Of a stretch of DNA of 64,000 nt, positions 4,463 through 52,690 are shown one piece after another. Position 1 is the stretch's first letter. Each line of letters starts with the position of its first letter. The position numbers and the translations under genes were made by a program. The notes under the pieces were generated by a model. The model was given only the letters and a program-made list of their open reading frames with translations, was not told the DNA's origin and searched no databases. The DNA comes from Forficula auricularia (Eukaryota > Arthropoda > Insecta > Dermaptera > Forficulidae). The DNA lies in assembly GCA_024734495.1 (NCBI GenBank), contig JALMQS010000828.1, forward strand, positions 5,133,603 to 5,197,602. Direction: 5' to 3'.

Positions 4463-4515
4463 TTTTTTGACAGACGTTTCGTCACTATATTTGCAACTTC
4501 TTCAGCGACTTATTC
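4463..4515 (-). ncRNA. Hammerhead-like ribozyme motif, family 1 (minus strand)
   Basis: On the minus strand: CTGAAGA (4505-4499), one nucleotide, stem II GTTGC/GTGAC with an AAATATA loop, GAAA, then CGTC. Stem II pairs through two wobbles. Stem I is weak in this arm, so it is probably a decayed partner of the copy at 4641-4693. Confidence 0.55.
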
Positions 4516-4640
4516 TTCAAAACAATTATGCTTTCTGTGTTTCTTTGTTTAAACTGTGAAGAAAAATGAATGTGTTTAAGAATAAAATAAATGAAAAAAG
4601 ATAAAATGTTTGGAATAATATATCAGACAATTGAGTTGAA

Positions 4641-4693
4641 GAATAAGCCGCTGAAGAAGTCGCAAATATAGTGACGAAACGTCTGTCTTATTC
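4641..4693 (+). ncRNA. Hammerhead-like ribozyme motif, family 1 (plus strand)
   Basis: Stem I is GAATAAG paired with CTTATTC (plus two inner pairs). It is followed by CTGAAGA (4651-4657), one unpaired A, stem II GTCGC/GTGAC with loop AAATATA, GAAA, and the minimal stem III CG with cleavage-type triplet GTC. This is the order of a type I hammerhead. It forms a head-to-head pair with the minus copy at 4463. The extra A before stem II is non-canonical, so activity is uncertain. Confidence 0.65.
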
Positions 4694-4759
4694 AATATAA
4701 AACTCTGAATTCACTTTATTTGCCAATTTTATTTAGGCTTCATCGGGCGCAGGGCTTCG

Positions 4760-4895
4760 CACGAGACGAGACGAGACGAGACGAGACGAGACGAGACGAG
4801 ACTTGAGAAAATATCGTCTCGGTCTCGTGAATTATCAAAAAAGACAGTATCGTTTCGGTCTCGGTCTCGTCTCGTCTGGTCTCGTTTGGTCTCGC
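4760..4895. repeat. GAGAC pentanucleotide repeat in inverted arrangement
   Basis: About nine GAGAC units (4760-4803) are followed, after a 60-bp interval, by CTCGT/GTCTC units in the opposite orientation up to about 4895. The whole can fold into a GC-richer hairpin in AT-rich surroundings. Confidence 0.85.
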
Positions 4896-5095
4896 CAAGT
4901 ATCGTTACATTCTTATTTTTTTATAGTATAGTAAAAATATAAAAAATTAAATAACTGAAATTAAATTTTTCACTTACGAAGAAATATTTCACACGATATT
5001 TATTATTGAACTGTTTAAAAAGTAAGGTAAAACGATATTTATTGAAATTATATTAGGTTAGATTTGGTGGTTTTCACAAAGAGGAAATTTTTTTT

Positions 5096-5145
5096 TAATT
5101 TCTCGATATATTTCGGGTTGTTAACCCATCATCATGAAAACATCA
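5096..5145 (-). ncRNA. Degenerate hammerhead-like motif, family 5
   Basis: On the minus strand: ATGATGA (core C replaced by A), T, stem II GGGTT/AACCC, GAAA, the palindrome TATATA, then TC. The same stem-II family appears more intact at 36573. The core substitution predicts an inactive copy. Confidence 0.45.
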
Positions 5146-5517
5146 ACTATCTTGTATCTTATTAATGCTTTGACATAAGATCATAAGGACGGACAGACAG
5201 GCACTAAATCAACACTAATCGGGTTGCTGTTTATTTTTAAACAAAACCTTAAAAATGGTATTGTGTAGTAAATTGAACACCCTCTCTTAGTGATGGTTTG
5301 AAAGAGCTCATATATCTTAAAAAGTATTTATTTTAGAGCCTATATTTATATAACTTTTTCTTGTTTTCGTGAAAATTACCTTTTCTCAAAATATGGTTAC
5401 CATTTTGAACACTGGGTATAGTAAATAAATACAAATTTTAAATGAAGAGAATATCTCACCATTCATTAGCAGTCGGTCGCTTTTACGCTTCAAGAAGCGA
5501 AGCATTTTGTATTCTAA
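5146..5517. other. Anonymous DNA
   Basis: No motif, terminal repeat or credible coding frame is seen before the MITE that starts at 5518. Confidence 0.45.
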
Positions 5518-5676
5518 GGGCCAGTTGTATGAAGCAAAGTAAATGCTTTTTACCACTAACAAAGGGTAGGAACTTTCAGTGCCTGTCATCTGATTGGCCA
5601 TCCCAGTGGCTCCATTTACCATCTACCCTTTGTTAGTGATAAAAAAAGCACTTACTTTGCGACATACAACCGGCCC
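5518..5676. mobile_element. PIF/Harbinger-like MITE
   Basis: Inverted ends of about 50 bp start GGGCCAGTTGTATG and GGGCCGGTTGTATG and are flanked by TAA on both sides (5515-5517 and 5677-5679). A three-base TWA target and GGG-starting ends are typical of PIF/Harbinger derivatives. At 159 bp it is non-coding; two overlapping short frames across it are artefacts of the inverted repeat. Confidence 0.8.
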
Positions 5677-6574
5677 TAAGTGACTATTTAAATTATTTCA
5701 AAACATTATTTCCTATTGAAATTTCAATGAACAGACTATATAAAAGTCAAATAATATCACCTGGGAAGAATTGAAAAAAGTATATAGATTTTTATATAGA
5801 GTTTCATGATTGCGAAATGATGAAATATGCAAAACAGGAACTAAGCCAAACGGCTGTAAATCATCAATTCACAATAACTTCTCTCTCATTTAGAAAGAAT
5901 GTAGATTCCGAGGCTAAGTAAATATTTAAAGAGGTAAAAGACCTCTCACAGGAAACCAAGATTAAAATAAGAATATAGAAATGTAAGTATATTGAACTTG
6001 TAAAAGCCGAATGAATAATATTTAAAATATTTCAAGTATTTCCCTTTAAATCAACTCAATTCCAATTCAAGATTCAGCTGGGCTATTGTGTAGCTAAATC
6101 TATATATTTAGTAGAATTGAAATGACATTTTGCCAAGAGTAGAGTTGACTAATTTTTGAGGGATCAATTTGAAAATGTATCTTTTTAGATTAAATTGAAA
6201 ATATTGCTGAGAGTAATATAGTAGAGTTGTTGACTCTTAAGAAGAAATCCATGCGGTTGTCCTATTTATATTTGCATTAAACTAATTGATTTCTCATTAA
6301 GAATTGTATCTTCTGTTTAACATAAAGTTTCAAAAAGAAAAATATTTAATATTTTATTTATTTAAGACAATATATTTGAAAATTTCAATTTGATATTTCA
6401 CATGAATATTTGATCGAATTTTAGTTAAATCTATATCTAAACAACTTTAAAAGAATGATAATTTTGGAATATTATTTACAAAAATAATCCAGACCACCAC
6501 ATTTTGCTGTATGGCGGTTTGTAAACACTTAGTTAAGTTGACAAATGGTAGATAGTAGACTGACTGGTAAATGC
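5677..6574. other. AT-rich DNA with one dispersed-repeat fragment
   Basis: Mostly featureless. At about 6205-6265 there is a copy of repeat N (GAGAGTA...TAGAGTTGTTGA), also found at about 29297, 43935 and 46375. Confidence 0.45.
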
Positions 6575-6985
6575 CTGTTGTACAAGGTATCTAGCGACCT
6601 CTGTAAAGATTAAAGTCAAGTAAGAAATATTTTTTGGTTGGCAATGCAAAAATCCCTAAAATCTCATTAAAATGTTTATTTTATCAAGTTTAGAACCCAT
6701 GATTTTTAAATAAAGTGCTTTAAATAAATAAATCGGCCAGTTAACAATATGATTACCATTATTATTATTGTGCCCATATCCGTTGTACAAGGTAGCTATC
6801 GAACTCTGTAAAGATTAAAGTCAAGCAAAAAATATTTTTAGGTTGGCAATGCAAAAATCCCTAAAACCTCATTAAAATGTTTATTTTTTCATTTGTTACA
6901 ACCCATGATTTTTAAATAAAGTGCTTTAAATAAATCGGCCAGTTAACAATATGATTACCATTATTATGGCTTTAATAAACTGTCA
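6575..6985 (+). repeat. Tandem duplication, about 205-bp unit x2
   Basis: Both units start at GTTGTACAAGGTA (6577 and 6782) and run through the shared phrases GGTTGGCAATGCAAAAATCC and TCGGCCAGTTAACAATATGA. The copies differ by scattered substitutions and small indels. Confidence 0.85.
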
Positions 6986-8440
6986 TACAACCGGCACTTA
7001 GGTGCCAGAACTAAAATAAGCTCTTTTCTATTATAAACAGGGCTTGGAAGATAATATTGATAATTCTCTAAGATGTTTAATAAATTATTCAGATATTAAA
7101 GATTTCATAATTGAATTTGATACATTACCACAAATGTAGATAAAATATTTTAATTTAAAAATGATGTATTTCATTGCTAATTTATAAATAAATGGAACTT
7201 GAAAGTTGAAATGAATTTAATTAATTAATGAGATGGCATACTATATTTCTAAATTTTATAAAAAAAATGTTATTAAGTCAACCATAAAATGGTAACAACC
7301 CATTTTCGCACATTGTTGAACAAAGAATCGAATTTAGAAGTATGTTTTTTTTATGCATAGTAGAGTTAAAAAATCTTAAATCTGAACTTTTTCAAAATTT
7401 ATTAATTTAATAACTTAAAAATAGGAAAGAGATTAACCAGTCAAGCCAAATATAGAATAGATTTCGTAAAAATTAGTTTATTTTTCATATTTAAAGAGAA
7501 GCTGGCTTAAGCCGGGATTATCTAAAGTCATTCGTGGTATATGAGCTTTAAGGCCCAGTTCTGAATATAGTCAGGGGAATGAGATTAGTCAGGGTCCAAA
7601 CACCCTCATATAACAAAATAGAACATTATGATTGGCGATGGACCTTAGAAGGGATAGAAAACGGACAATCATATGAAACGTCGTCTCCACCCACCAAGGA
7701 GACACTATTGAAAATGCATAAAAGGATCAACACGGAGAAATAGAGAGACTACTTCTTCTTTTACACTCTCTATTATTTTATCCAGCTCTTACCTTACATC
7801 TCTATATTATACACTCTCTCTATTACTCGATCTCACGAGTATATTTCTTCTTCCTGGAGTCGTTTTTGCGGGCATTTTCATTCATCCACTTGCGAGCCCC
7901 TCCATTGGCATTTCTATCATTAGCACGATAGCTAATTGGATAGCACGGACAAGAATACCTGTCCGGCTCTCGTGAAGACACCACGGAAGCTTATCAAAAA
8001 GGCGAGACTCCAGGCCCGTTACACACTCTTCGACGTGGCAGTCTACGGAACCTGAGCGAGAGGGGGCCACGGCACAGTTAGTGCTGTTCGAATTACTTTG
8101 AACCGATCAGCACACCTCGAGAGCAAACGTAATTAATCACAATTTCTTTGAACGATCTCCGTTCACCCCTTAAAGCCATCAAATCATTTAATTCTTTCTG
8201 ACTGTTAAATTCACCAAGGACCTCAATAAATCATATATTATACATTGAATTCTTGATTATCTTTCACTGTTAAGAAAATTTCCCCATTCTCCTTTGCAGC
8301 TAGAATTCATTTAAGTATTTTTATTTTATTTTTGCCTATTTAGAATTATTTTTTTATTTTTTTTAAATTCATTGCATCAGATTAACTTCAGTAACGTAAA
8401 ATTTGAACATAAGAGTAAATTCAGTAGTTTATCAAACTAG
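6986..8440. other. Anonymous DNA, partly pyrimidine-rich
   Basis: 7741-7850 is CT-rich. 7920-8080 is less AT-rich and contains TAGCTAATTGG, resembling a Pol III A box, but no B box was found, so a tRNA-derived origin is not supported. The short reverse frame at 7882-8070 has no recognisable motif. Confidence 0.45.
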
Positions 8441-8459
8441 TACAACGAGATACACTGAG

Positions 8460-8880
8460 TTACACCACCACCTCCACGTCTATAAAGGTTAGTATTCTCA
8501 CACTCAGGAATATTCCCCTTAAACGTCCCCTTACCAAACTAATTTCCTTACCCCTCCAACCACATACCCTCCCTAACCCCATTGCATGGTGGAGGTTTCG
8601 CTGGGATTACATGCCCCTCCAACCACCAACCCTCCCAGACCCCATTTTACCCCTGGACCCCACCCCACGACCCACACCCTCAACCCCAACCCCGACCCTA
8701 CGCCACCACCACGCCCTGGACCCTACCCCGTGTCCTCCACCCCGCCCCACACTACCATACAACCCCGTGATTACCCCCACACCCCCACCCGTGACTCTGG
8801 ATCGTCACCTGAACAACCCGCCCTCCAATTTCCCTACCCCTCCAACCACATACCCTCCTTAACCCCATTACAACCATATT
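8460..8880 (+). repeat. C-rich low-complexity tract
   Basis: It has strongly strand-asymmetric CCCC/CCACC runs, with CCCTCCAACCACATACCCTC near both ends (about 8552 and 8836). Similar C-rich tracts lie inside or next to Helitron-like repeats at about 20825, 42655 and 50280. The minus strand has many G runs that could form quadruplexes. Overlapping proline-rich frames here follow from the composition. Confidence 0.75.
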
Positions 8881-11430: not shown

Positions 11431-11662
11431 GTCAATCTTTTTAGACCTAATACATACACTCTTGTCTCTTAGATTAAACCGGCTACTGGGGCCTCCACGT
11501 GTCTTTTGGGGAGCGACAAATAAGTGAGAAACAAAAGTATTTTTACTATAAAAGCCATCATCAAGCTTAAATACAAGTACAAATTCCAGCTTTGTCATTT
11601 TCAACTTATCACAAATTGGTAAGTTATGGCACCTTACTCCTATGTTGTTAGAGTTCATGACT
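11431..11662. other. Anonymous DNA
   Basis: A 93-codon reverse frame (11377-11658) has no recognised motif and partly overlaps the direct repeat. No gene is supported. Confidence 0.4.
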
Positions 11663-11730
11663 ATGATGGAACTGTATTAGATGAAGGAGGAGGTATCAGA
11701 CAAAGTTGGATGTGCTGAGTTCAATAAAAC

Positions 11731-11787
11731 ACCCTGAATAAAACGTTTCGGCCTGAATTTATTTGGCCATCTTCAGTTAATTGGGAG
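11731..11787 (-). ncRNA. Hammerhead-like ribozyme motif, family 2 (minus strand)
   Basis: Minus strand: stem I CTCCCAATTAA, CTGAAGA, T, stem II GGCC/GGCC with an 11-nt loop, GAAA, CG, TT, then TTATTCAGGGT closing stem I. All conserved core positions are present apart from the one-nucleotide insertion before stem II. Confidence 0.65.
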
Positions 11788-11827
11788 TTATCCACACAAT
11801 GGGGGTTCACATATCTGATTGAATCTA

Positions 11828-12003
11828 CCCTAGTAGCACAACGTTTCAAACTATATAGTAACTATATAGTGCCTATATAGATTCTCAAAATGTAGCACAA
11901 AGTTTCAAATTGTATAGTAGCTATATAGTGCCTATATAGATTCTCAAAATCTATATAAGGACAATATAATTACTAAGTAGTTTGAAACATTGTGCTACTA
12001 GGA
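11828..12003. mobile_element. TA-flanked MITE with internal duplication
   Basis: Inverted ends of about 25 bp (CCTAGTAGCACAACGTTTCA) are bordered by TA on both sides. Inside, a roughly 65-bp phrase containing CTATATAGTGCCTATATAG is duplicated. It is nested in the large foldback 11663-12527. Confidence 0.7.
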
Positions 12004-12158
12004 TAGCCATGTCAAAAATAAAAATTGTAGCTTCATGTAAATTTAAAATGTGCCTGCGCCAAAGGTTTCAGAGATGAATGTAAAATCAGACGAAACGTTT
12101 TATTCAGGGTGTTTTATTAAACCCAGCGCATCCAACTTTGGCTGATACCTCCTAATTA

Positions 12159-12284
<126 letters not shown>

Positions 12285-12404
12285 TTAACAAAGAATAGGA
12301 TTCTGAACCTTTGGGCGCTGGCACGTTATAAATTTACATGAAGCTACAATTTTTATTTCTGACACTGGTTCGATCACATATGTGTACCGCATTTTCTGTA
12401 TAAC

Positions 12405-12460
12405 TCCCAATTAACTGAAGATGGCCAAATAAATTCAGGCCGAAACGTTTTATTTAGGGT
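12405..12460 (+). ncRNA. Hammerhead-like ribozyme motif, family 2 (plus strand)
   Basis: CTCCCAATTAA (stem I), CTGAAGA (12415-12421), T, GGCC (12423-12426), loop, GGCC (12438-12441), GAAA (12442-12445), CG, TT, TTATTTAGGG (stem I return, one mismatch and one bulge). It has the complete type I order. With only a two-pair stem III, cleavage would be expected mainly as a dimer, as in other minimal-stem-III hammerheads (established for newt-type ribozymes). Confidence 0.7.
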
Positions 12461-12527
12461 GTTTTATTGAACCCAGCGCATCCAACTTTGGCTGATACCT
12501 CCTCCTTCATCTAATACAGTTTCATCA

Positions 12528-13230
12528 CAGCCACGAACTCGAACAAAATTGCATTTGGCCTATGATTTATCCGAAAATTAATCATTTCAAATTAATGTAG
12601 AAAACGGGATCAGAGAAATCTCTTTACGAGAGGTCAAATATACTTGGAGTTAATATCCAGATAGAGTTATAGAATGAAATATATAGTAAATAACTTATTT
12701 CCAGGAACGAAATTTGTTGTAGAGGAAAATAGATTAAATCAGAGACCAGTTCAAAGAAACAAATACCAACATCCAAATATAATATTTGAGCGGGCGAAGT
12801 TCACTAAAAGAGGAGAAAGGAATATGACTATTTGATGCTAACTCTCAAACGCGAGACATTAAATTATAAATCGGTGAAACGAGAGATTGGATTCAAACCT
12901 GAATTTGAAGTAGAATTCATCAAAAAAAGCGAGGAAATTTCTGCTTGGCATCATCTTTAATCATTTTTGTTTTTCTAAGCAAAAGATTTTGCATCGCCGC
13001 CTTCTTTCATCGGCAGACGCAAGTTAGACAGCGCCCCTATGGTTCGACTAAACCCCGACTCAAATATCTAGAAGGAATTCTCAGAAGAACATCTCTTAGG
13101 GAAGTTTCTCTCTAAGGCATCTCATCAGATTATCCTCTTACAAATACATAACAAACTTGCTTAAAATCAACATAATTGTGCCTGATTTGCATTCTAACTT
13201 GCGTTCTGTCCTCAGGGTTTAGTTAAATCT
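12528..13230. other. Anonymous DNA
   Basis: No terminal repeat, tandem repeat or credible coding frame is seen. Confidence 0.45.
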
Positions 13231-18260: not shown

Positions 18261-18603
18261 ACTATTAACTTTTCATTTAAGAAATATCATCAAATAATAT
18301 AAATCTTCAAACAGCAGTTTCAGTTAAAAATGAAAATTCTACACTGAAAACAAAGAAAGGTTGTCTTTAATGCTCCACCACTGAAGGTTTTACCCGAGGG
18401 GTCATCCGCGATTGGAAGTAGGTGTACACCTCTTTGGAAGTATTTTGGAAGTACTTGGAAATATTTGGAAGTACTTGGAAATTGATAGAGATTGTCTTTA
18501 GGAGACGGACTGGTATAAATATGCAATTGGATGTTGATGAAAGCAGTCCACGGTGGTTGTAAAAAAATAAGACTATAGAGGTTTTATTATTTTACATTTA
18601 TTT

Positions 18604-18650
18604 GTTAAACCGACGTTTCGGAGATTTATTTTCTCCTTCTTCAGGGTAAC
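18604..18650 (-). ncRNA. Hammerhead-like ribozyme motif, family 3 (minus strand)
   Basis: Minus strand: GTTACC (stem I), CTGAAGA, A, stem II GGAGA/TCTCC, GAAA, CGTC, GGTTTAAC (stem I return with a two-base bulge). The core is complete apart from the extra A. Confidence 0.65.
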
Positions 18651-18711
18651 AAAAAGTCAATGAAAGTAGTTCAAAAGTAATTATGTTTTGAACTACTTTC
18701 ATTGACTTTTT

Positions 18712-18758
18712 GTTACCCTGAAGAAGGAGAGAATAAATCTCCGAAACGTCGGTTTAAC
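18712..18758 (+). ncRNA. Hammerhead-like ribozyme motif, family 3 (plus strand)
   Basis: GTTACC (18712-18717), CTGAAGA (18718-18724), A, GGAGA/TCTCC, GAAA (18743-18746), CG, TC, GGTTTAAC. It is the mirror image of 18604-18650; the two diverge from a common centre. Confidence 0.68.
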
Positions 18759-19139
18759 TAAATAAATGTAAAATAATAAAACCTCTATAGTCTTATTTTT
18801 TTTACAACCACCGTGGACTGCTTTCATCAACATCCAATTGCGTACTTGGAAATATTTGGAAGTACTTGGAAATATTTGGAAGTGCTTGGAAATATTTGGA
18901 AGTACTTGGAAATATTTGGAAGTGCTTGGAAATATTTGGAAGTACTTGGAAATATTTGAAAATACTTGGAAATATTTGAAAATACTTGGAAATATTTGGA
19001 AGTTATTGGAAATATTTGGAAGTACTTGGGAATATTTGGAAGTACTTGGAAATATTAGGAAATGCTTGGAAATATTTGGAAGTACAAGTGTAAGTAGGTG
19101 TACAGCATATTAGGTCGCGGTTCATCCCTCGGTTTTACC

Positions 19140-21948: not shown

Positions 21949-22549
21949 CGAAGAGTGAACCGCGACCTAATATGTTGTACACCTACTTCCACTTGTACTT
22001 CCAAATATTTCCAAGTACTTCCAAATATTTCCAAGTACTTCCAAATATTTCCAAGCACTTCTAAATATTTCCAAGCACTTCCAAATATTCCCAAGTACTT
22101 TCAAATATTTCCAAGTACTTCCAAAATACTTCCAAAGAGGTGTACTCCTACTTCCAATCGCGGATCACCCCTCGGGTAAAACCTTCAGTGGTGGACCATT
22201 AAAGACAGCCTTTCTTTGTTTTCAGAAGAGTGAACCGCGACCTAATATGTTGTACACCTACTTCCACTTGTACTTCCAAATATTTCCAAGTACTTCCAAA
22301 TATTTCCGAGTACTTCCAAATATTTCCAAGTAATTCCAAATATTTCCAAGCACTTCCAAATATTTCCAAGTACTTCCAAATATTTCAAAGTACTTCCAAA
22401 TAGTTCCAAGTACTTTTAAATATTTCCAAGTACTTCCAAATATTTCCAAGTACTTCCAAATATTTCCAAGTACCTCCAAATATTTCCAAGTACTTCCAAA
22501 ATACTTCCAAAGAGGTGTACACCTACTTCCAATCACGCATCACCCCTCG
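21949..22549. mobile_element. Composite of two minisatellite elements sharing one TSD
   Basis: Two minus-oriented elements (21949-22174 and 22224-22549) are joined by a 50-bp spacer. The whole is flanked by a perfect 8-bp duplication, TTCTGCAC (21941-21948 and 22550-22557). The spacer GGTAAAACCTTCAGTGG ... TTTGTTTTCAG is the reverse complement of the left flank of copy 2 at 18345-18394, including its target GGTAAAAC. The unit therefore appears to have moved as one piece carrying flanking DNA. The left end of each unit is CGAAGAGTGAACC or similar, a diverged TIR. The repeat frames (WKYLE/STSKYFQ-type) are not genes. Confidence 0.8.
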
Positions 22550-22789: not shown

Positions 22790-22834
22790 GGGGGAGAGAC
22801 GGACTCGGTAGAGATTTTAATTGATAAGTGATGG

Positions 22835-22873
22835 AAACCCTGAAGGAGGGAAAATCCTCCGAAACGTTGGTTT
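22835..22873 (+). ncRNA. Degenerate hammerhead-like motif, family 3
   Basis: AAACC (stem I), CTGAAGG, stem II AGGA/TCCT, GAAA, CGTT, GGTTT. The last core A is G here, so activity is unlikely. Confidence 0.45.
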
Positions 22874-22984
22874 TTGAGTGATGAAAAAAAAATGAATATC
22901 CAATAAATCTATTTTATTCGAGATAATTTTTTTCACTATCCTTGGCCTGCCTGTCCATCACATATCAATGAAAATTTTATAATT

Positions 22985-31213: not shown

Positions 31214-31273
31214 AAATTGTAGAAAGAGAAAGAAAATCATAAGTTGGTGGCATCTATTAAATCCGATGGTATG

Positions 31274-31438
31274 TTAAATTGAAAGTTTTTGCCGAGAGTA
31301 GCAGAATTTTTATATATTTTTTATATATTGAAGGAGACAAAAAAAGATTCATAAATTAATTCATGTGAATACATTGTAATAGACTGATGAAGAGGGCAAA
31401 GCCCTCGAAACTATAGTCTCATTATAAATAAATAAAAT
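31274..31438 (+). mobile_element. Retrozyme-like 165-bp insertion
   Basis: It is flanked by a perfect 12-bp duplication, TCCGATGGTATG (31262-31273 and 31439-31450). The opposite foldback arm shows the near-identical uninterrupted site. It contains one complete hammerhead-like motif and no coding sequence. Monomer size, single type I ribozyme and a TSD of about 12 bp agree with animal retrozymes, which are thought to be mobilised by Penelope-like elements (established for other animals; inference here). Confidence 0.7.
31374..31427 (+). ncRNA. Hammerhead-like ribozyme motif, family 4
   Basis: Stem I TTGTAAT..GA pairs with TC.ATTATAA. Then CTGATGA (31384-31390), A, stem II GAGGGC/GCCCTC (6 bp, AAA loop), GAAA (31407-31410), palindromic stem III CTATAG, and TC giving a GTC cleavage triplet. 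This is the best-preserved motif in the window; only the extra A before stem II is non-canonical. Confidence 0.72.
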
Positions 31439-32157
31439 TCCGATGGTATGGAATATTTTTAATTATATGTCAGAGGGGTTGTTTTTCAGCCCCTCGGGAA
31501 TCGAACCCGAGTGCCAGTAACAGCAATCTGAGCCATCTGGCTCACCTAAGGGATGCCTCTCTGACATATGTACTCGAGTTACTGATGTTACTGGCACTCG
31601 GGTTCGATTCCCGAGGGGTGAAAAACAACCCCTCTGACCATATAATTAAAAATATTCCATTCCATCGGATTTAATAGATGACACCAACTTATGATTTTCT
31701 TGTAAATTTGAATCTATTACCATCGGCAAATTAATCTTTCATAAAAAATTGTAGAAATTTTAACCCATTATTTTAAACAAATTAGTCTTAGAAGGAGACA
31801 ATAAAAGAGTGTGTCTTCTGCTGGAATTATAAATTCTATTTATAACGACCCATGTGGCAAGACTGAGACTAAGCGGACATTAGTGTATCGGTCCGATATC
31901 CGACTGTTAGCAATTATGAGACACATGGGTTTTACGATCAGTCGAAGTCTGGCATTAATATCAGATTGGTGTCAGAATGGTCAACTATCTGAGTCTCGGT
32001 ATTCCGACCGACATTCAATCGGATGGAGACTGGCATTAATATCAGATTAGTGTCAGAATGGTCAACTATCCGAGTCCCTTTTTGAAATGTATGTGGTGAG
32101 GGGAAAGTAAGGGTAAGAGGAGAAATTGTACTAAGAATTAATATTTTATTATATTAG

Positions 32158-32462: not shown

Positions 32463-32628
32463 GATTTTTTAATTAAATTAAATTTTCAACAAATGGAACA
32501 ATTGAGTTTTTAACCAGCTGATGGTAAACCTATACCTGCTATAATAAGAAGGAATGGAAAGTCTCGAGACTATAGTTACCCATGTGGAAATCGCACTCTC
32601 CATTCATACATTTATTCCTGTGAATCAA

Positions 32629-32683
32629 TTGTAATAGACTGATGAACAGGGCAAAGCTCTCGAAACTATAGTTTAGTTATAAA
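32629..32683 (+). ncRNA. Hammerhead-like ribozyme motif, family 4, second copy
   Basis: TTGTAAT..GA, CTGATGA (32639-32645), A, stem II CAGGGC/GCTCTC (weakened: one wobble and one mismatch), GAAA, CTATAG, TT. It is clearly homologous to 31374-31427 but with a poorer stem II. Confidence 0.55.
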
Positions 32684-32775
32684 TAAAATTTATAATTCCA
32701 GCAGAAGACACACTCTTTTTATTGTCTCCTTCAATATATAAAAATTCTGATACCCTCGTCACAAAACTTTCAATT

Positions 32776-34170: not shown

Positions 34171-34600
34171 AGTACGGACTAAAATAAGTATTGGTATCTG
34201 TCCGTTGGTAAACAGCGCTGACTGGTGGTCAAAATAAAAACTAACACAATCGGGTCATATAAATGTTTATTGAATAAAGAAAATTATTTTAAAAAAAACA
34301 AGATTGATTATTAGTTTGTTGTTTACTATCTTATGCAATATTGAGTGATTTATTTAAATATTGTTCGGCATCTCAATTTTGAAAAAATATTCTCGGCATG
34401 ATTGATAATTGTGGAGCTGACCCGAATAGTTTAGTTATATTTTTGGCCACGAAACTGTGTAGTGCCAAGAAGCACTTACCAATTTTTAATATGAACAAAG
34501 ATTATTTTTGAGTTATTTCAATATTTTAGACTTCAGCAATAGAGCATAACACGTAATAAATTCTTACTTAATTAAATTATTAAGTATTTTTAATTGAAAG
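34171..34600. other. AT-rich DNA, nothing recognised
   Basis: No gene or repeat structure is seen. Confidence 0.4.
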
Positions 34601-34885
34601 TAATGGAAGGCAGCCCAGAAGTACTGAGGAATGAAAAAATTAACACATGTCCAAATAAGTTTTAATTTATTGGATTCCTTCCTCCTATCCTTTCAAACCG
34701 ACGGTTCGGAGAATTCTTCCCTCCTTCTTCAGGGTTTCAAGGGGTCAATGAAGGAAACAAATAAAATGCTTCCTTCCTCATTCCACGTCGGTTTGAAAGG
34801 AAAGGAGGAAGGAATCCAATAAATTACACCTTATTTGGATATGTTAATTTTTTCATTCATCACTACCCTAGCTGCCTTCCATTAC
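34601..34885. mobile_element. Foldback with decayed hammerhead arm
   Basis: Arms pair GTAATGGAAGGCAGCCCAGA... with its near complement at 34868-34885, through TTATTGGATTCCTTCCTCCT. The left arm carries a hammerhead-like motif at 34690-34740; the right arm has lost the core. The coding-looking frame across it is an artefact. Confidence 0.75.
34690..34740 (-). ncRNA. Decayed hammerhead-like motif, family 3
   Basis: Minus strand: TTGAAACC, CTGAAGA, A, GGAG/CTCC, then GAAC instead of GAAA, CGTC, GGTTTGAAA. The GAAA change predicts loss of function. Confidence 0.45.
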
Positions 34886-35447
34886 TTTAATTTAAGTATT
34901 TCTTTTTTAAAGATTACGAGTATACTAGTTTTTGTTTAAGTCAGTTAACAGGCTTTTTTCATCAAATTAGTTTGTAAATTAGAAAAGAGCGTTTTGGTAA
35001 CTCGAATAAATGTACTACTATTTCAGTATAGGAATTATTTTAATGAAGTAAAATATACCTAATGATACAATTAAATTTAGTTTATGCGATAATGCAATTG
35101 AGATAAAATTGTATTTTCTTCAATTTGTTATTTTCTGTAATTCAATAAGGAAATGGAAATGAAATTTCATTAATCTCTCTAGGAACTTAGAGGGGTCTAA
35201 AAACATTGTAAATTAACATTAATAACATTAGTAACATTAATAAATTGAATTAGAAGTTACCCTTATGTATAGAATATTATTTAATAAAAATTCATTTGAT
35301 TGTTTCTGACTTTCTGCACATTATTTTATTAGATCAAATCTAAAAAAAATTTATTCAAATTAGATCCTATATAATATTTTTAATTTACATTCTAGAAATC
35401 ATTCCTCCATTAGATATAATTCACCCCTCGTAGTTTTTTTAATTTTT
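34886..35447. other. AT-rich DNA, nothing recognised
   Basis: Short ATTAATAACATTAGTAACAT phrase repetition at 35215-35240 only. Confidence 0.4.
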
Positions 35448-36290: not shown

Positions 36291-36420
36291 AGGGTCATAT
36301 TTTTTATATTTATATATATTTTAATATATATTTTTTTTTTAGAAATCAAAACATTTTTCTGAAATTTAGAAAATGAAATAAGGAGTTAATAATATTTTTT
36401 TTTTTTTTTTGGTTTTTAAG

Positions 36421-36712
36421 GAATTTGGTGTGTGGTACTTGGTGAAACATTTTTTAAAATTATTGGATAAAAATACTTGGTAGGTTTCACATTAAGATAT
36501 AAAAAATAAAACGAATTTATTTTTTGAGAATCTTAATCTCGATATATATATTTCGGGTCAGTTACTTTCTGTATCTCCTGAAGATGGGTTAGTCACCCGA
36601 AATATATATATCGAGATTAAGATTCTCTAAAGTTTCGTTTTTTTTATATCTTACCGAAACCTACCTAGTATTTTTATCAATAATTTCAAGTTAATAATAA
36701 TGGAGCTTTAGA
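36421..36712. mobile_element. Family D foldback with hammerhead-like motif
   Basis: Arms include TTATTGGATAAAAATACTTG, GGTAGGTTTCAC and TAAGATATAAAAAATAAAAC with complements near 36640-36700. A hammerhead-like motif lies in the right arm (36573-36617); the left arm keeps only the 3' half. A sister copy is at 62108-62310. Confidence 0.75.
36573..36617 (+). ncRNA. Hammerhead-like ribozyme motif, family 5
   Basis: ATCTC (stem I), CTGAAGA (36578-36584), T, stem II GGGT/ACCC, GAAA (36599-36602), self-complementary TATATATA as stem III, TC, GAGAT. The complete order is present with a longer stem III than the other families. Confidence 0.62.
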
Positions 36713-37130
36713 TTTTATAAATCAACATATATTCAGTTCCTCAATAGAGCTAATTATGTAATTATATTGCTATATTATTATATAAGATAAATCAAATCTC
36801 CATTTATTCTAAGTTTAAAAATTTTTAACGCCAGTTTAATTCCCACATATGATAATTAATATAATTTCTAATGATATGATCAGTGCCGTATCTATCCTTC
36901 GAAGCAAGTTTTAAATTAGCGACTCCTATTTAATAAATTTAATAAAACAAGTAGTGTAATGCAATTTATTTCTAGTTGTTTTTAAATAAAACTAACCTAG
37001 AAATACCAACAAACCGCATAAGCAAATCGTTATTGCTTTTTTTTGCAATGATATTTATCCTACCGTAAGAACTTAATTTTATTATTACTTAATTCTATTT
37101 ATTTTCTTAGAAAGACCGGCTGGTAAGCGA
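36713..37130. other. AT-rich DNA, nothing recognised
   Basis: No gene or repeat structure is seen. Confidence 0.4.
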
Positions 37131-37366
37131 AATACGTAGGTTATAATGAATGGCAGTCCATAAATTATTTAAATTTTATTCAAATTCCGACGTTTCGGAG
37201 ACCTTTTCTCTCCTTCTTCATGGTATTGAATAGTTATTGATGGGTGCCGAGTTATACTCACCCATCAATAACTATTCAATACCCTGAAGGAGAGAAAAGG
37301 TCTCCGAAACGTCGGAATTTGAATAAAATTAAATAATTTATGGACTGCCTTTCATTATAACGTACT
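37131..37366. mobile_element. Foldback with two hammerhead-like motifs, family 3
   Basis: Near-perfect arms of about 100 bp run from AATGGCAGTCCATAAATTAT to its near complement at 37340-37355, with a 16-bp spacer. The minus motif (37180-37235) has the core C replaced by A. The plus motif (37275-37318) lacks three bases (CTGAAGGAGAG). Each arm carries a different lesion, so they decayed independently. Confidence 0.82.
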
Positions 37367-37950
37367 TATTTATTATTACTGTAGTATTCAGAACTCAGAG
37401 ATTTTTTATCTCCTGGGTTTTTTTAGGCCACCCCTACAGACTGGACCCTATGAGGTTAAGAAACTTAAAATAAAAATTTTTACTAGAAAGAATGAATAAC
37501 TATTAATTAAGTTAGAATGATTAGCCTAGTCCCTTAATGAGTAAAAAAATGTGCTGGTTCTGCCCCTACTATTCAACCTTCAATCTTCAAATAAAAAAGG
37601 AACATAGACATAAACGAATATAGGCTTATTGAAGATAAATAAGAAAAAATAAAAAGGAAAGAGACTATACTATCATACTAACCGACGAGTACTCTGGATT
37701 GCACTCTGATGACTTATTATTCTAAGCTAAGTCCAAGGCCCATTCTAAATGGCACAGATGGCCAAGCATAATCTTTGTGTCTTGAGATGACCGAGAAAGC
37801 GAACACGAAATATCGACACACGGCTAGGCTCAGTATGTCCTAGAAACCTTAATCGAAATGCATAAAAAGCGAAACTAATACCACCGCTGAACGAATCGAA
37901 ATTATGAAGTAATGTAGAGTTCACGAAAAGAGCAAGAAAACGCACCCACC
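37367..37950. other. Anonymous DNA
   Basis: A 66-codon reverse frame (37745-37945) has no motif. No repeat structure is seen. Confidence 0.4.
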
Positions 37951-38617
37951 CTAAAAGGAATGAGTAAGAAGAAGAAAAAAAATACTGATGGAATGGTATT
38001 TTCTTATGACGTTGTCACGTTCAACTATCGTCAGTAAACCGACTTTACAGACAACCTCAATCGTTACCTCCTCTACTTCTTCTGTCGCCCTTTGTCCTAG
38101 TTCAATTTGTTGTTTATAATTTTCTCTGTTTTCTTGTAGTAAAATCTGGAAGTGGTCTCTCCATTCGTTCATTTTAATTAATGATAAATTGCAATTTTCT
38201 TGCAAATTTTGCCTGGTCCTTGATATTATTTTCCAAGCTTTTCTCGACCTCCTACCCGTCCCAATAAATCTGTCAACCTCTTCACACGCTTTAAGCCACA
38301 TTTCATTTTTCTTTTCATTTACCCGTTTTTTTACTTCCGCCCTGGATCTTGTATATATTTTTCTGTCTTCTGGATCATTTGTGTTCAACCACCTTTGATA
38401 TAGTAAACTCTTTTCTTTTATGGCTCCCTCCAGTTCTTCATCCATCCAATCATTTCTTTGTTTTTTCTTTCCGATCTCTCCTAGAGCTTCATATGCGGCC
38501 TCGTGTATTGTTGATTTCAACCATTCGTATCTTTCCTCAGCTGTTCCCTCAATTTTATCTCTCATTTTACTAGCAAGTCTCAGTTTAAATAGGAAAATAT
38601 GAATTCTTTCAATCAGT
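37951..38617 (-). pseudogene. Non-LTR retrotransposon ORF2 fragment (endonuclease-RT linker)
   Basis: The minus-strand frame is open from a stop near 38620 to 37951. It reads FKLRLASKMRDKIEGTAEER, later NDWMDEELEGAIKEKSLLYQ and RWLNTNDPEDRKIY, then TGRRSRKAWKIISRTRQN. This charged, helical region is the linker between the endonuclease and reverse transcriptase of insect non-LTR elements (W-x-D-E-E-L and KKxAWKxIxxLR-type motifs). It stops just after EEVEEVTIEVVCK, where the RT fingers would begin; the last 30 or so residues are unrelated sequence. Neither catalytic domain is present, so it is a truncated relic. The open frame over 220 codons suggests a fairly young insertion. The first ATG is internal, so the marked start is arbitrary. 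Confidence 0.75.
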
Positions 38618-41715: not shown

Positions 41716-42420
41716 TGAAAATAGTTGGAAGTTTTTTCAAAAAATCAGCTCGGGTTCAGATTAACCAAGATGTATTTTAAAAGAGAAAGAATTCAATCAA
41801 TCTTTTTCGGACAAATTCTAAGATTTTAGTAGAAATATTATTAAATTGCGATATCAGAGGGGATTCATCCCCTCAGCAGTCGAACCTGAGAACTAACATG
41901 CTATCCGGGCAGTCATCTCACACCCTCGAGACAAAAACCTCTCTCTGAATCGCAATATATGATATAAGCACAGAATTTTTTTACTCCATTCATCTATAAC
42001 GGAAATTAAAAAATTTACCTTAAAATGAAAAAAGTTTTTCATACAAGTCCTCTTATTTAAATGTAAAACTAAAGTTTTAAGCATCTTTTTTTTGGAAAAT
42101 AGTTGGAAGTTTTTTCAAAAAATCAGCTCGAGTTCAGATTAACCAATATGTATTTTAAAAGAGAAAGAATTCAATCAAACTTTTCGGACAAATTCTAAGA
42201 TTTTAGTAGAAATATTATTAAATTGCGATATTAGAGGGGATTCATCTATAGAACTAACATGCTATCCGGGCAGTCCGGTTAGTTCTCAGGTTCGACTCCT
42301 GAGGGGATGAATCCCCTCTGATATCGCAATTTAATAATATTTATACTAAAATCTTAGAATTTGTCCGAAAAATTTTAATTAAATGCTTTCTCTTTTAAAA
42401 TAATTTTTAATGCTTCCCCT
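41716..42420. mobile_element. Family J foldback, copy 2, with tRNA-like arms
   Basis: A direct duplication (AGTTGGAAGTTTTTTCAAAA at 41724 and 42100) is followed by inverted arms around 41851-41870 and 42306-42370. The minus arm (41955-41863) has GGATAGCATG and GGTTCGACTGC; the plus arm (42262-42310) has GGTTCGACTCCTGAGGGG. The tRNA-like head is bounded by CAGAGAGAGG and CCCCTCTGA, as at 31477-31556 and 60965-61110. Confidence 0.65.
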
Positions 42421-42750: not shown

Positions 42751-42820
42751 TACCATGCATGTATGATCAAATAAAAACATTTAATTCAATTATGTTGATT
42801 AATGTCCATTATAATTAGTA

Positions 42821-43212
42821 GATTAAAAATTCACAGTTCTTTGGACAATGTTTTTTTATTGAAGCTCTTATTCAATTTTTGTACAACGTTTCGTCTCTCT
42901 CGAGACTTTTCAAGTACTCAATTGGTTAGAGCAACATTGGTTGAAATAAAGATAAAAATAACTGAGACATAGTAGAATTTTTTTTCTTCCTAGATTGATA
43001 CAATAAAATTTATTTATTATTATTTATTTATTGTATCAATCTAGAAAGAAAAAAATCTACTATGTCTCAGTTATTTTTATCTTTATTTCAACCAATGTTA
43101 CTCTAACCAATTGAGTACTTGAAAAAGTCTCGAGAGAGACGAAACATTGTACAAAAATTGAATAAGAGCTTCAATAAAAAAACTTTGTCCAAAGAACTGT
43201 GAATTTTTAATC
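42821..43212. mobile_element. Long foldback with variant hammerhead-like arms
   Basis: Near-perfect arms of about 185 bp from GATTAAAAATTCACAGTTCT to its complement at 43193-43212. Each arm carries stem I GTAC, then TTGAAAA(A), stem II GTCTC/GAGAC with GAGA loop, GAAA and CRTTGTAC. The CTGAWGA core is altered in both arms, so this is a variant or inactive family. Confidence 0.8.
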
Positions 43213-43564
43213 TATTTAATTCACTCTCTAGTTCTAAAATATGACGATATGGAACTTAATTTTTCTAGTACCTATAGAATAATTATTTTCAAAAATAGTT
43301 TTTGGAGCTGTATGTGAACTCAAAATGAAAGTTCGTAGAAAGCTTTTTCTTGTCATAAAATGTTTAGATTTCTAAATTTAGTCAAAATACCAATGGGTAC
43401 CAAAAAATTAGGAGGCTGGTATTTAAAAAGAGATGCAAATAGAGGACCTGTAAATTGAGAGTGGAGCCCAAAAAATCTTCAAATTTTTTCAATTTTTTCA
43501 AATATGTTTCAATTCAAAATTATAAATATTTCTATGTCTTAAACCCATCATCAGTCTTTTAATT
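43213..43564. other. AT-rich DNA with a hammerhead remnant
   Basis: The minus strand near 43560-43530 reads GACTGATGATGGGTTTAAGA, a core and half of stem II of family 5. The SINE L insertion interrupts it. Confidence 0.4.
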
Positions 43565-47806: not shown

Positions 47807-47808
47807 TA

Positions 47809-47970
47809 TGTAAGTTTACAGTTATAACAGTCATCGCATTGAAATTGATTGGGGAGACGAATACTGAAAAAATAAATCTTTATTACTACTAAAAAAGCCA
47901 CTGCTATACTCCTTAAATTATAGGACATAGCAGTTTAGGAAGAAGAAAAAGAGATGATGTTTGTTTTCAT
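47809..47970. other. Short anonymous interval
   Basis: Nothing recognised. Confidence 0.35.
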
Positions 47971-48584: not shown

Positions 48585-49150
48585 ACCTAAAAAATGGACT
48601 TCAAAAAAATTTAATGCAACAAATAAAATAATAAGAACTCAAAAATCAAACTATACTGAACCTAATGCATAAAAATCATCGAAATCGGTCCACACTTTAA
48701 AGAGAAATCGACAAACAAACATCATCAGAACTTGACCAAATTAATATGGGACCACCCCTAAAGTATCCCCTTTCCAATAAAAAAAGAATCATCGAAATCG
48801 GTCTATAAACAAAGAAGTTATGCGTAAACATACATAACAAATAAGGTCCAATACCAATGAAATTTATACTGAACCAATCGGCAACTATACTGAACCCAAT
48901 GCAAAAAAATCATCGAAATCGGTCGGCATGGTAAAGAGAAATCGACAAACAAATTTCATCAGAACTTGATCAAATTAATATGGAACCACCCCTAAGGTAC
49001 CCCCTTTCCAACAAAAGAAGAATCATTGAAATCGGTCAATAAACAATGAATTTATGCGTGAACATACATAAAAAAAAGATTTCAAGCACAAAAAAAACAG
49101 ACATTCCGTTGAATTGATAACCTCCTCCTTTTTCCAAAGTCGGCTAATAA
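48585..49150. mobile_element. Family C copy with internal duplication
   Basis: It has homology to 39066-39612 (GGACTTCAAAAAAATTTAAT start, CCTCCTTTTTCCAAAGTCGG end). A segment of about 240 bp is duplicated: ACTGAACCYAATGCA and GAGAAATCGACAAACAAA occur at 48654/48890 and 48701/48938. No coding frame. Confidence 0.7.
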
Positions 49151-49479
49151 AACAAGAAAAATTTAAGAATTATTAAACAATTAAGATCTGGACGAGTGAA
49201 ATTTAAAATATTTTTTATTTAAAAAACTATTCATTTTAGGTATAGGGAATATTTAAGAAACTCCTATTGGATTTTTATGTAGAATTCAAAAATACTAAAA
49301 TTTATGTCATGTTCGATTTGAAAAAATTGAGTATTAACTAGTATTGATTTTCAGAAATAAAATATTATTATGGTCATCCTGGATATAACATTTTAATTTT
49401 TATGATTAAGTAAGATTTTTTAATAATGTATAATTAAGTGTTCTAATTGATCAAATTAATTCTACAAATAATAGTTTAA
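49151..49479. other. AT-rich DNA, nothing recognised
   Basis: No gene or repeat structure is seen. Confidence 0.4.
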
Positions 49480-49678
49480 TTAAAGTTTAAATTTTTATTT
49501 AAATCACACATGATTACTTTATAATGATTTATTGAAATAAATAATTACAATTTTAATACAACGTTTCGATCGCAGAATAAGTCGATCGAAACGTTGTATT
49601 AAAATTGTAATTATTTGTTTCAATAAATAATTATAAGTAATCATGTGTGATTTAAATAAAAAATTTAAACTTTAATCA
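49480..49678. repeat. Foldback with two 3' half-hammerheads
   Basis: Near-perfect arms of about 95 bp (TTAAAGTTTAAATTTTTATT ...). The centre is AACGTTTCGATCG ... CGATCGAAACGTT, that is two GAAACG ends facing away from the middle with no CTGAWGA. This fits fusion of two units truncated inside stem II. Confidence 0.8.
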
Positions 49679-50204
49679 AATTAATCACAAAAATAAAAGC
49701 TTCAACAGCTTCATTACTAATAGTTTAATTATTATAAATTTTTAAAAATGAACGCTGAATCGGTAGATTTTACAAACTATCTAAAATAACTCAGAAATGA
49801 TAAATTTTAGACATCAAGTGGATTATACAAAATCCTCTTAGTTTTTAACACTTAATCAAATGATACAAAAATATTTTGGGAGTTCCATAGAAAATAAGAA
49901 AGTTACCAAAAGTTTTTAATAATTTATTTAATAAAAGAATATTCCAAAACAAAAATATGTCAAAGTTCAAAATTTTCTCTCAACTCCTTCCATGAAAACT
50001 TTTAATCAACGAGTTCTGTGGAACACGCTGTATATATTAAAATTATGGCTATACAGCTAGTACAAAAACCTTCTTACGGGTAGAGCGACCAAGGCACTAT
50101 AATCTTAATTGTGTCGTGAGAGGTTCTCTTAAATTTAGTTATTAATAGCCTTCTAGTGTTTAAGATATTATCAGAGCAGAATTAAGTATATACTAGTTTA
50201 GAGA
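49679..50204. other. AT-rich DNA, nothing recognised
   Basis: No gene or repeat structure is seen. Confidence 0.4.
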
Positions 50205-50485
50205 TTTTGAATAATTAGTACCTGGCCACCGAGCGATGCTCGGTAACTTTTTGCTTAAGTTAAAAGCTATATATTAATCCCCGGACCCCAACCACTTCAT
50301 CACACCTTCTGCACCCCTCCACCCAAAATCTCCCCACCTACACCCCCACTTCACCCCCGAAACCACTTCCCTCGCCCCCGTACCCCTCCACCATCTACCC
50401 CCACCGTCACCTCCACCCCCGCCGCCTCACCCAGTTTTTACATTTCTAGCCTTCTAGTGGCCCACAGATTATGTGTTTATAGGTA
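50205..50485 (-). repeat. Hairpin plus C-rich tract, pair of 18090-18260
   Basis: CCGAGCGATGCTCGG hairpin, AACTTTTTGCTTAAGTTAAAAG, then C-rich DNA from 50280 to 50430 and TTCTAGTGGCCCACAGATTA (compare 20915). This looks like a second Helitron-like fragment abutting the next element. Confidence 0.55.
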
Positions 50486-51008
50486 TCTATATAAATAAAA
50501 ATGTACTGTTACGCTTAAGTGATACGTTGAAGGATCTCCGAAAGTTCTTCACCGATTTCTTTGAAATTTTCACACATTCCATTCAAATACACGAGTGTTT
50601 TTATATATAGTGTTTTTATAGATATCACACATGTGGCATGTAAAAAATATTTTTTTCGAGGAAAAATGACAGCGCCTCTCTGGGAAGGAGGGGGGTTAAA
50701 AGTGAATAAACAAGATGGCCGATAATAGATTTTTGGAAATCTTTCAACTGTCAATATTATTTTTGTTTAAGGGAACAATAATTATAAACCTGGCCCAAAA
50801 TTTAGATATACTAATTGGAGCACCAAACGGACATATGTTGCGAATATAGTTTCGATACGTCCAGTGGTTTAGGCGTGAAGCATAAGAGTTAGTCACAGCA
50901 ACGCGTGGTCGGGTCAGCTATTATCTATATATAAATTTTAACCATAAAACGAGACGCTCCCCGCCAGGGGCTAGGTGTCGCCGGGCCAAAGGCCTGGGCG
51001 TCAGCTAG
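50486..51008 (+). mobile_element. Helitron-like non-autonomous element, copy 1
   Basis: It starts A|TCTATATAAATAAAAATG and ends with a hairpin CGCCGGGCC/GGCCTGGGCG, then TCAG and CTAG|T. TC and CTAG ends, a 3' hairpin about 10 bp before the end, an A/T insertion site and lack of TIR or TSD are the Helitron hallmarks. The GAGACGCTCCCCGCCAGG box (50951-50968) is near the 3' end. Copies: 55929-56381 and 58233-58739. No Rep/helicase coding. Confidence 0.75.
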
Positions 51009-51482
51009 TAGGTATATAAATAAATGCCGTATAATTTTTTTAATTAAATTACAATTTTTGAGTTAATTAATTAAATTGCAAAATTCTAATATAGAAGAAT
51101 ATGTTATACTTTATATTAGTGTCATCATCAGCCTAAAATTTTAATTTAATGTATAACTTACAACCTTACAAAATTTTACATTTTTTTATTAATAAACTAA
51201 TTATGTACCTTAGAACAATCTAATAATTATAGAAAATGTAAAATTTAGAAATGTTCTGTTTTTGTAAGTTATATATTAAAATAAAATTTTAGGTTGAATA
51301 TGATGTTTCAGTAAAAACCCGTTTTTTAGTAAGAACGGGTTCTTACTAGTTAAAACGCGTTTCACTGAATACCTTTGTTATACTAGAGTTTACTGATGTT
51401 AGTTGAGTTTTGTTTAAAGGTCTAGAATCATCATTTTTGACCTTCTGCCTCATTTTGGGTGTTAATTTTCAAAAAAATGTTC
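51009..51482. other. AT-rich DNA with a 160-bp foldback
   Basis: 51132-51293 has inverted ends CCTAAAATTTT and CTTACAA/TTGTAAG over about 35 bp, a MITE-like structure without a clear target duplication. A further short hairpin AACCCGTTTTTT.../AACGGGTT is at 51316-51341. Confidence 0.55.
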
Positions 51483-51680
51483 TTCCCCCCCCCCCCCCCC
51501 CCTCGCCACTCAAAAATTAAAGAGGCGAAACTTTTAAGAGAAGATGTATTTTCGGTAGTTTACGGGTATATATTTGGAGTGTGGTTTTTTAAGAGGAATA
51601 AAATTTTTGGACCGAGACGCTGCCCGCCAGGGCACTAGCCCGGAGGGCCGAGCTTCGAGGGCGTGCCCTCGTTAAACAAT
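51483..51680 (-). repeat. GAGACG-box repeat, reverse copy of 20168-20385
   Basis: It opens with a run of 18 C, then CTCGCCACTCAAAAATTAAA, GAGGCGAAACTTTTAAGAGA, ending GAGACGCTGCCCGCCAGGGC and a GC-rich head. Identity to 20168-20385 is high. Confidence 0.8.
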
Positions 51681-52120
51681 AACTAATACATTTTTTAAGA
51701 CAATTTTAATTCATAGTTACAACACAATTTCCGAGATAATAATTAATAATTAATGAAGAATTTACACTAAAATCAAGCTGGCAACAACTCATATATTTAA
51801 ACTAAAAAGTGTGTTAACTTTAGTACTTTTTTTGACGTTTTTTTCGTTTCAGCTATTGTCGCAACAGCTTTCAATCGTTTATTAAGAACTTTTTGTTTTA
51901 TAAATCTTCCTTTATAATGTACTTTATTTGACATTTCTATGATAAAATATATACAAGCTCGGACAGCGTTGCCAGATTTAACAAACGAGCACGGGATTGG
52001 CTAGTAGTGGTACATAAACAGTAAAAAGTTTTAGGCTTATGAATCATGAATCCTTATTGTCTGTTCTATAAGCTCTAGCATTAACTTTTTGCTAGTATTG
52101 TCGCGAAACAACTACCTTAA
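51681..52120 (+). mobile_element. Family K element, copy 2 (5' truncated)
   Basis: It matches 38990-39060 plus 39626-39987, giving the order without the family C insertion, and ends GAAACAACTACC|TTAA. The left TIR is replaced by the GAGACG-box repeat. Confidence 0.72.
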
Positions 52121-52630
52121 AGAAAGATATTAATCGCCTAGTGCACTTACTACCTATTGCTTATATCGGAAACTTTATGTAACTCTCTAAAGTTCAGTTC
52201 GCTGTTCTGTCTTCTTTTTATCCTTTAATACAGGTTTATTAGCCTATCTTTACTTTTCCTGACCGTTCTAAATATTCACTTTTCGAATATGGTCGGTCTC
52301 ATAAGAAATTTATTTATAACTTGAAGGCGGAAAGCTCACCCTTTTAGCGAAGTTTCTAACCCACTAGTCAAAGAAATTCACTATGATTAAAGAATCTTTT
52401 TCTCTATCTAGTAACGTTCCTATTGACAATAAAAAAATTGTTTAGAAAATAATAAAACTTCTGTTATATTTTTACAAAAATGAGAGTCATTTCTTGAGAA
52501 TATATCCTCGAAAAGTTATATAATAATTAAATTTATTAAATTATAATTCTCTTCTTGGAGTATAATAGCAAGATATAACAACACACAAAACATTAATGGA
52601 GAAAACCAGAAGGTGGAGGCTTTTTTATAT
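52121..52630. other. AT-rich DNA, nothing recognised
   Basis: No gene or repeat structure is seen. Confidence 0.4.
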
Positions 52631-52635
52631 TGACC

Positions 52636-52690
52636 CTTTTAGACTCTGAAGAAAGAGGGAAGATCTCTGAAACATCTGTTTTAATAAAGT
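52636..52690 (+). ncRNA. Hammerhead-like motif, decayed
   Basis: CTGAAGA (52646-52652), A, stem II AGAG/CTCT, GAAA (52669-52672), CATC. Core and stem II are kept, but stem III is mismatched and stem I is weak. Confidence 0.45.

Follow-up and report, generated by a model that had tools for sequence, protein, structure and literature searches.

A 64,000-nucleotide stretch of the Forficula auricularia genome (GenBank assembly GCA_024734495.1, contig JALMQS010000828.1, positions 5,133,603 to 5,197,602; hereafter the window, whose own coordinates are used throughout) carries a set of hammerhead ribozyme motifs, many of them held in palindromes. Judged by sequence, these are real minimal type I hammerheads of the kind found in Penelope-like elements (PLEs), and the insertions that carry them appear to be PLE-derived rather than autonomous PLEs. 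Very probably the ribozymes are hammerheads of PLE pseudo-long terminal repeats (pseudo-LTRs), or of short PLE derivatives lacking an open reading frame (ORF), and the palindromes arose from one copying reaction per target strand. What can be read directly from the DNA is the ribozyme layout, the palindromic architecture, covariation in one ribozyme group together with a PLE parent of that group, a one-sided tail and target duplications.

Hammerhead motifs and palindromes

The type I hammerhead layout consists of a conserved core, CUGANGA ... GAA ... UH, with an A15.1-U16.1 pair. The window was scanned for CTGANGA followed by a stem II with four or more pairs and GAAA. This gave 12 matches, versus a mean of 0.98 and a maximum of 4 in 100 order-3 Markov controls. 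The 12 are not independent: six are motifs listed in a preliminary description of the window, all found in place with pairing stem II arms, three are inverted partners (4505-, 11776- and 18644-; the sign gives the strand) and three (58035+, 43554- and 38540-) were set aside as looking like chance. The six listed motifs stand, but the list had overlooked the minus-strand copies and the palindromic architecture. Five unlisted copies have broken cores: C3 is replaced by A in 37221- and 5135-, the core is 3 nt short in 37283+ and 22840+, and 34732- has GAAC. Degenerate copies lie at 43108+, 42866- and 60229-. Among the elements numbered here E1 to E10, the full type I core is present in E1, E2, E3 (both strands), E5, E7, E8a and E8b, and it is damaged in E4, E6, E9 and E10.

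An Rfam search of the window returned no hammerhead. This absence says little, because a canonical-looking type I hammerhead from IMG/VR (sequence L001) received only a sub-threshold type II match. In all, 16 IMG/VR contigs (L001-L016) match the hammerhead pattern, and at the gathering score Rfam called 0 of these 16 loci.

In six representatives 25/36 stem I positions are paired, while partner swaps gave a mean of 17.4 and a maximum of 24 and none of 265 reached the observed value; stem I played no part in choosing the copies. Stem II, which was part of the selection, has 28/30 positions paired (swap maximum 20). Between GAA and the cleavage nucleotide lies an A..U segment, its length chosen partly by stem I fit, that is palindromic in 12/13 copies (ACGT, ATATAT, ATATATATAT, ACTATAGT), the exception being 52646 with ACAT. 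The six families proposed earlier reduce to five, since the 18718 and 52646 motifs belong to one family: a profile made without 52646 recovers 52629-52758 at E 5.1e-9, and 52600-52790 is about 70% alike over 174 nt to genome loci of the 18718 family. Among five copies of this family, pairwise identity is 78% in the ribozyme and 49-56% in four flanking bins.

Self-comparison of the window places many motifs in inverted pairs or palindromes (4469-4687, 11642-12549, 18517-18847, 34590-34895, 36454-36689, 37130-37371, 42819-43214), and no inverted partner was found in this way for 52646, 22840 or 5135. The ribozymes point outward, and in several palindromes one arm starts within or beside the ribozyme. 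Target duplications of at least 9 bp flank 9/17 inverted window elements against 15/272 mismatched flank pairs, one of the nine, E3, being uninformative as it sits in a minisatellite. Folding of whole palindromes draws the core of E1, E3 (-256 kcal/mol) and E6 into a long hairpin; in E4 the core region is only partly paired and the plus arm has no core. Whole-palindrome transcripts should make poor ribozymes, because the opposite arm offers the core a pairing partner.

The 18718 family was followed through the whole assembly (1,061,512,967 bases, 845 contigs). The descriptor CTGAAGAN{10,24}GAAACGTCGG has 19,351 exact matches, and 14,044 when the stem is fixed as GGAG/CTCC; the reversed control gave 0 in both cases. 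A non-random sample of 26 independent loci was taken from contigs C1, C3 and C4 only, after L020, L042, L043 and L046 had been dropped as repeats of their neighbours. An inverted partner is present at 21/26 loci, and 20 of these 21 are self-centred palindromes with a variable centre. Among the first 100 matches listed, 22 neighbouring pairs lie at most 700 bp apart, of which 18 are head-to-head, 2 tail-to-tail and 2 direct.

Target duplications of 10-18 bp were detected in 15/20 palindromes, compared with 17/380 mismatched flank pairs (at least 10 bp). All 15 have 25-49 nt between arm and duplication at one end only (6 left, 9 right); flush ends on both sides or two tails, each detectable by the test, occurred in 0/15. 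These stretches represent a conserved tail, because they are alike among themselves (44/105 pairs score at least 30) whereas the sequences at the opposite ends are not alike among themselves (0/105). Both arms contain the ribozyme in 9/15 palindromes and a single arm does in 6/15. In the latter the ribozyme is always on the tail-less arm (6/6), and the short tailed arms begin at -14, -24, -22, -16, -30 and +5, counted from the predicted cleavage site. These starts are approximate, coming from local alignments of diverged arms, and L021, L030 and L031, which have no clear duplication, were left out.

The two ribozymes of one pair belong to the same subfamily. In the 18 head-to-head pairs their edit distance is 1.39, against 3.48 for shuffled partners, and 0/2000 shuffles were as low. 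Two RNAs from the same source, one tandem RNA used twice, or conversion between arms could each account for this likeness.

Penelope-like parents and covariation

Matches to the GIY-YIG domain are abundant in the genome (150 scored of 3,423 candidates). At L077, L078 and L062 a GIY-YIG match over the Pfam cut-off is followed on the same strand by a hammerhead of the 31384 type, to which E8a and E8b belong. The hammerhead lies 154 nt (L077) and 257 nt (L078) past the frame end and 307 nt past the match in L062. The L077 frame is open over 384 aa and its hammerhead matches E8a in stem II, loop and stem III; stem II in L078 is GAGTGC/GCACTC. Another family, PLE-A, has an 858-aa open frame with matches to RVT_1 (1.6e-16) and GIY-YIG (8e-6). 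In L067 it forms a 2.9-kb tandem with an inverted copy beside it, and a hammerhead homologous to 31384 follows each of its three frames. The PLE-A stem II differs from the 31384 type by compensating pairs, and a third PLE family (L049, L050, L057, L063, L064) has yet another stem II, which also pairs.

A pseudo-LTR with a minimal hammerhead is thereby found through PLEs for the E8 group and by shape in the other families. The preliminary description had proposed PLEs or animal retrozymes as the origin. Its PLE part is directly supported for the 31384 motif (E8 group) and by shape only for the remaining families, and its retrozyme part is unsupported, as 18/22 close neighbours are head-to-head and 2 are direct. 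The elements share with PLEs inverted head-to-head repeats, an optional one-sided tail of 30-40 bp and a short target duplication. Direct tandem repeats whose stem III is longer, the mark of animal retrozymes, were not found. Among ten selected window ORFs, Pfam gave no reverse transcriptase or GIY-YIG match.

Covariation, claimed earlier for all the motifs, was recovered in the PLE/31384 group and, for the 18718 family, at pair 5 of stem II in genome copies. Across ten PLE-type ribozymes, changes on the two sides of a pair occur at three positions of stem II, a number reached by 36/500 shuffles. Neither the nine double-changed cells nor the covariation score was reached by any of 500 shuffles, with the qualification that eight of the nine cells are one lineage of four rows and that the shuffles ignore relatedness. 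Two of the three changing pairs shift together in that lineage, so events are few, and distal stem I pairs are missing from all four of its rows. Further pair types were at least as numerous in 498/500 shuffles. In 98 genome stem-loops of the 18718 family, pair 5 is A-T in 19, G-C in 64, G.T in 7, A.C in 3 and something else in 5. Taken with the 78% versus 49-56% identity of ribozyme and flanks, the covariation points to probable selection on the RNA fold in the parent elements.

Origin of the palindromes

In the favoured account, a PLE reverse transcriptase/GIY-YIG endonuclease would open an AT-rich target on both strands. The element RNA would have two start sites 3' of the ribozyme, separated by about 40 nt; copying would begin at either of them, once per target strand, after which the two complementary DNAs (cDNAs) would meet at their 5' ends. 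The expected outcome is a head-to-head palindrome with outward ribozymes and a target duplication of 10-18 bp. Just one of its ends would carry the conserved tail, about 40 nt long. In the available text of an in vitro study, a PLE protein cuts both strands of the target, extends each of them and uses two internal start sites (PMC11167929); such a pair of sites would account for the conserved tail. The ribozymes presumably cleave in the parent RNA. Arms that cross the cleavage site show, in these copies, templates that were uncut or religated; the loci were picked for containing a ribozyme and no frequency of uncut templates follows.

The main competitor is snap-back or self-priming, in which one cDNA folds at its 3' end and copies itself, so that a single priming event yields both arms. 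Self-priming on an antisense template has been proposed for PLE palindromes (PMC3846280, in the portion available), and the close likeness of paired ribozymes speaks for it, although conversion between arms could also cause that likeness. The relation of tail and arm speaks against snap-back and in favour of two reverse transcriptions: in all six one-ribozyme palindromes with a duplication, admittedly a small sample, the short arm has the tail and the other arm the ribozyme. A tail-less first cDNA cannot template a tail, and a short first cDNA cannot template a longer arm. We infer two reverse transcriptions per insertion because neither arm could have been copied from the other, and snap-back is considered unlikely.

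In the window, two elements agree with this arrangement by reading of their sequence, and a third is opposite. E5 (36384-36699) consists of the duplication AGTTAATAATA, poly-T, a tail and the palindrome 36454-36689, with a single plus-strand hammerhead (36567-36625, stem III ATATATATAT) on the tail-less arm. E8a is a 165-bp plus-strand insertion (31274-31438) with a hammerhead at 31372-31434 (stem II GAGGGC/GCCCTC, stem III ACTATAGT), flanked by the 12-bp duplication TCCGATGGTATG at 31262-31273 and 31439-31450. The second hammerhead of this type, E8b (32625-32690, plus strand), has its first stem II pair broken and lies on the tailed arm; a target duplication was looked for at its flanks and not found.

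The other rivals are weaker still. Animal retrozymes, which are non-autonomous, arranged in tandem and expressed as circular RNA, resemble the present elements in being short and low in GC with type I hammerheads, and PLEs have been proposed as the source of their mobility (PMC7229834, in the part accessible). Only 2/22 close neighbour pairs are direct repeats, however, stem III is minimal and palindromes dominate, which makes a retrozyme origin improbable. Foldback or miniature inverted-repeat DNA transposons whose inverted repeats had acquired a hammerhead would explain short ORF-less elements with inverted repeats and a high copy number, but the duplications are not of one length, the conserved tail is at one end only, the centre is variable and the ribozyme of E8a is common to a GIY-YIG retroelement; this origin is more improbable again. 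Chance matching in AT-rich DNA may account for the three scan matches set aside. For the main families it is refuted by the Markov controls and by the reversed genome descriptor, and as a general explanation it is practically impossible.

Several results weigh against the PLE account with copying on each target strand. In 5/20 palindromes (L018, L021, L026, L030, L031) no duplication of at least 10 bp was found. E8b is opposite to the tail pattern, and E4 (34590-34895; minus-strand hammerhead at 34732, plus arm starting near CGTC) has the duplication TTAAGTATTT flush at both ends and no tail. Isolated RNA folds are unusually stable only for 31384 (z -5.6) and 37221- (z -2.5), and the isolated fold of 52646 is not hammerhead-shaped. 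Covariation in the 18718 family is not significant in seven window copies, in whose alignment MAFFT misaligned the row of E9, and pairs 1, 2 and 4 of the 98 genome stem-loops show uncompensated changes only. Searches with tblastn using two PLE proteins, one of them partial, gave no match within 1.5 kb of 30 loci of this family (26 independent) or in the window. In vitro, the available text describes a start site that is alike on both strands, which leaves the one-tail rule unexplained, and mutant ribozymes without effect on insertion (PMC11167929).

The 18718 family may be non-autonomous, or its parent may be unsampled. PLE proteins presumably made its insertions; an autonomous parent of this family was not found. 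A more specific form of the favoured account is tentative and on balance doubtful: that every insertion is made by two coordinated, unequal reverse transcriptions whose RNA templates share a source, one from the inner start (tail-less, running through the ribozyme) and one from the outer start (tailed, stopping in or beside the ribozyme when short), with the folded hammerhead as the stop that shapes the palindrome and with an uncleaved or religated template.

Further window elements and known systems

The E1 inverted pair (4469-4687) has 59-bp arms of 93% identity with the ribozyme sense outward. Its plus-strand hammerhead (4641-4693; stem II GTCGC/GTGAC, stem III palindrome ACGT, predicted site after CGTC) was recovered, at E 2.4e-4, by a model that had been trained on a different family; the minus-strand partner (4470-4515, core from 4505) has a stem I that only partly pairs. 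The E2 inverted pair (11642-12549) holds hammerheads at 11776- and 12415+ and a third, 5'-truncated copy at 12092+. In E3 (18482-18844) a one-sided tail (18482-18516) precedes the palindrome proper (18517-18847; 331 bp, 96%) with hammerheads at 18644- and 18718+, and the insertion site is a 20-bp minisatellite. Arrays of this repeat, GTACTTGGAAATATTTGGAA, lie at 2514-2694, 18433-19085 and 21995-22510, and E3 is inserted in one of them. The E3 family further includes a decayed copy, E9 (22828-22889, plus strand, core 3 nt short), and a diverged member, E7 (52629-52758, plus strand), with a hammerhead at 52632-52690 and stem II AGAG/CTCT.

E6 (37078-37380) comprises the duplication TTTATTATTACT, a tail and a 90% palindrome (37130-37371) with the remnants 37221- and 37283+. 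E10 (5090-5150, minus strand) is a remnant of the 36578 family, absent from the earlier list, with core ATGATGA and stem II GGGTT/AACCC. A 94% palindrome at 42819-43214 contains degenerate hammerheads with core TTGAAAA at 43108-43167 (plus) and 42866-42924 (minus), detected by the model at E 0.0046 and 0.035. In the palindrome at 49472-49683 both arms start at an apparent hammerhead stem II (CGATCGAAACGTT). The degenerate hammerhead at 60229-60286 (minus) combines a mutated core with a 6-bp stem II that pairs perfectly (GTCAAC/GTTGAC).

All four copies of a palindrome family (4311-4417, 36418-36689, 60437-60634 and 62118-62305) share a conserved tail on the left (AGGTGTTGGTTCTAGGTGAAACATT or nearly so), and among these the hammerhead is kept only in 36454-36689. 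Sequences resembling short interspersed nuclear elements (SINEs) also form head-to-head palindromes or inverted pairs (31230-31701, 42151-42402, 60899-61172), the first two with a tRNA-like part as judged by eye. Two of the three have a duplication and a one-sided gap (10 bp and 46 nt on the right; 13 bp and 79 nt on the left), like the ribozyme elements, and these SINE-like palindromes may use the same machinery. A 221-aa frame at 37954-38616 (minus) looks like a fragment of a long interspersed nuclear element; it has one relative at 38% identity and no Pfam match.

The role of hammerheads in PLEs has been described as unknown (PMC7761336) and the PLE insertion route as little known (PMC11167929), both as far as the available text goes. 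In the F. auricularia genome, natural insertions whose ends can be read number in the thousands. Those sampled here provide a one-tail rule, evidence against snap-back and templates that spanned the ribozyme uncut or religated. Such insertion rules can be counted in one assembly and checked in the existing in vitro PLE assay.

Among known systems, the minimal hammerheads of PLE pseudo-LTRs (Cervera & de la Pena 2014; Lunse et al. 2017, as cited in the available parts of PMC7229834, PMC6466107 and PMC7761336) share the core, stems I and II, the palindromic stem III and the pseudo-LTR place; unlike them, most sampled copies here lie in ORF-less head-to-head palindromes and not in tandems. Animal non-LTR retrozymes are likewise short and low in GC with a type I hammerhead, but are direct tandems with a mostly longer stem III (PMC7229834, available part). 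Poseidon PAc of Anolis has a hammerhead near the copying start, two internal starts and extension on both strands; that work was in vitro, and its accessible text does not report a one-tail rule or palindromes (PMC11167929). Similar in architecture are the Penelope elements of Adineta vaga, with head-to-head inverted pseudo-LTRs, an optional 31-bp tail on one of them, target duplications of 8-10 bp in some copies, solo pseudo-LTRs and captured unrelated DNA. In the available text these are low in copy number with no hammerhead described (PMC3846280), whereas the present palindromes are about 190-600 bp long, have no ORF and carry the ribozyme in thousands of copies. A literature search, in partly available sources that did not include the founding papers on PLE hammerheads, found neither ORF-less hammerhead palindromes at such copy number nor a one-tail rule. 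Elements of this kind are already known, and the short palindromic form that abounds here is a variant of them.

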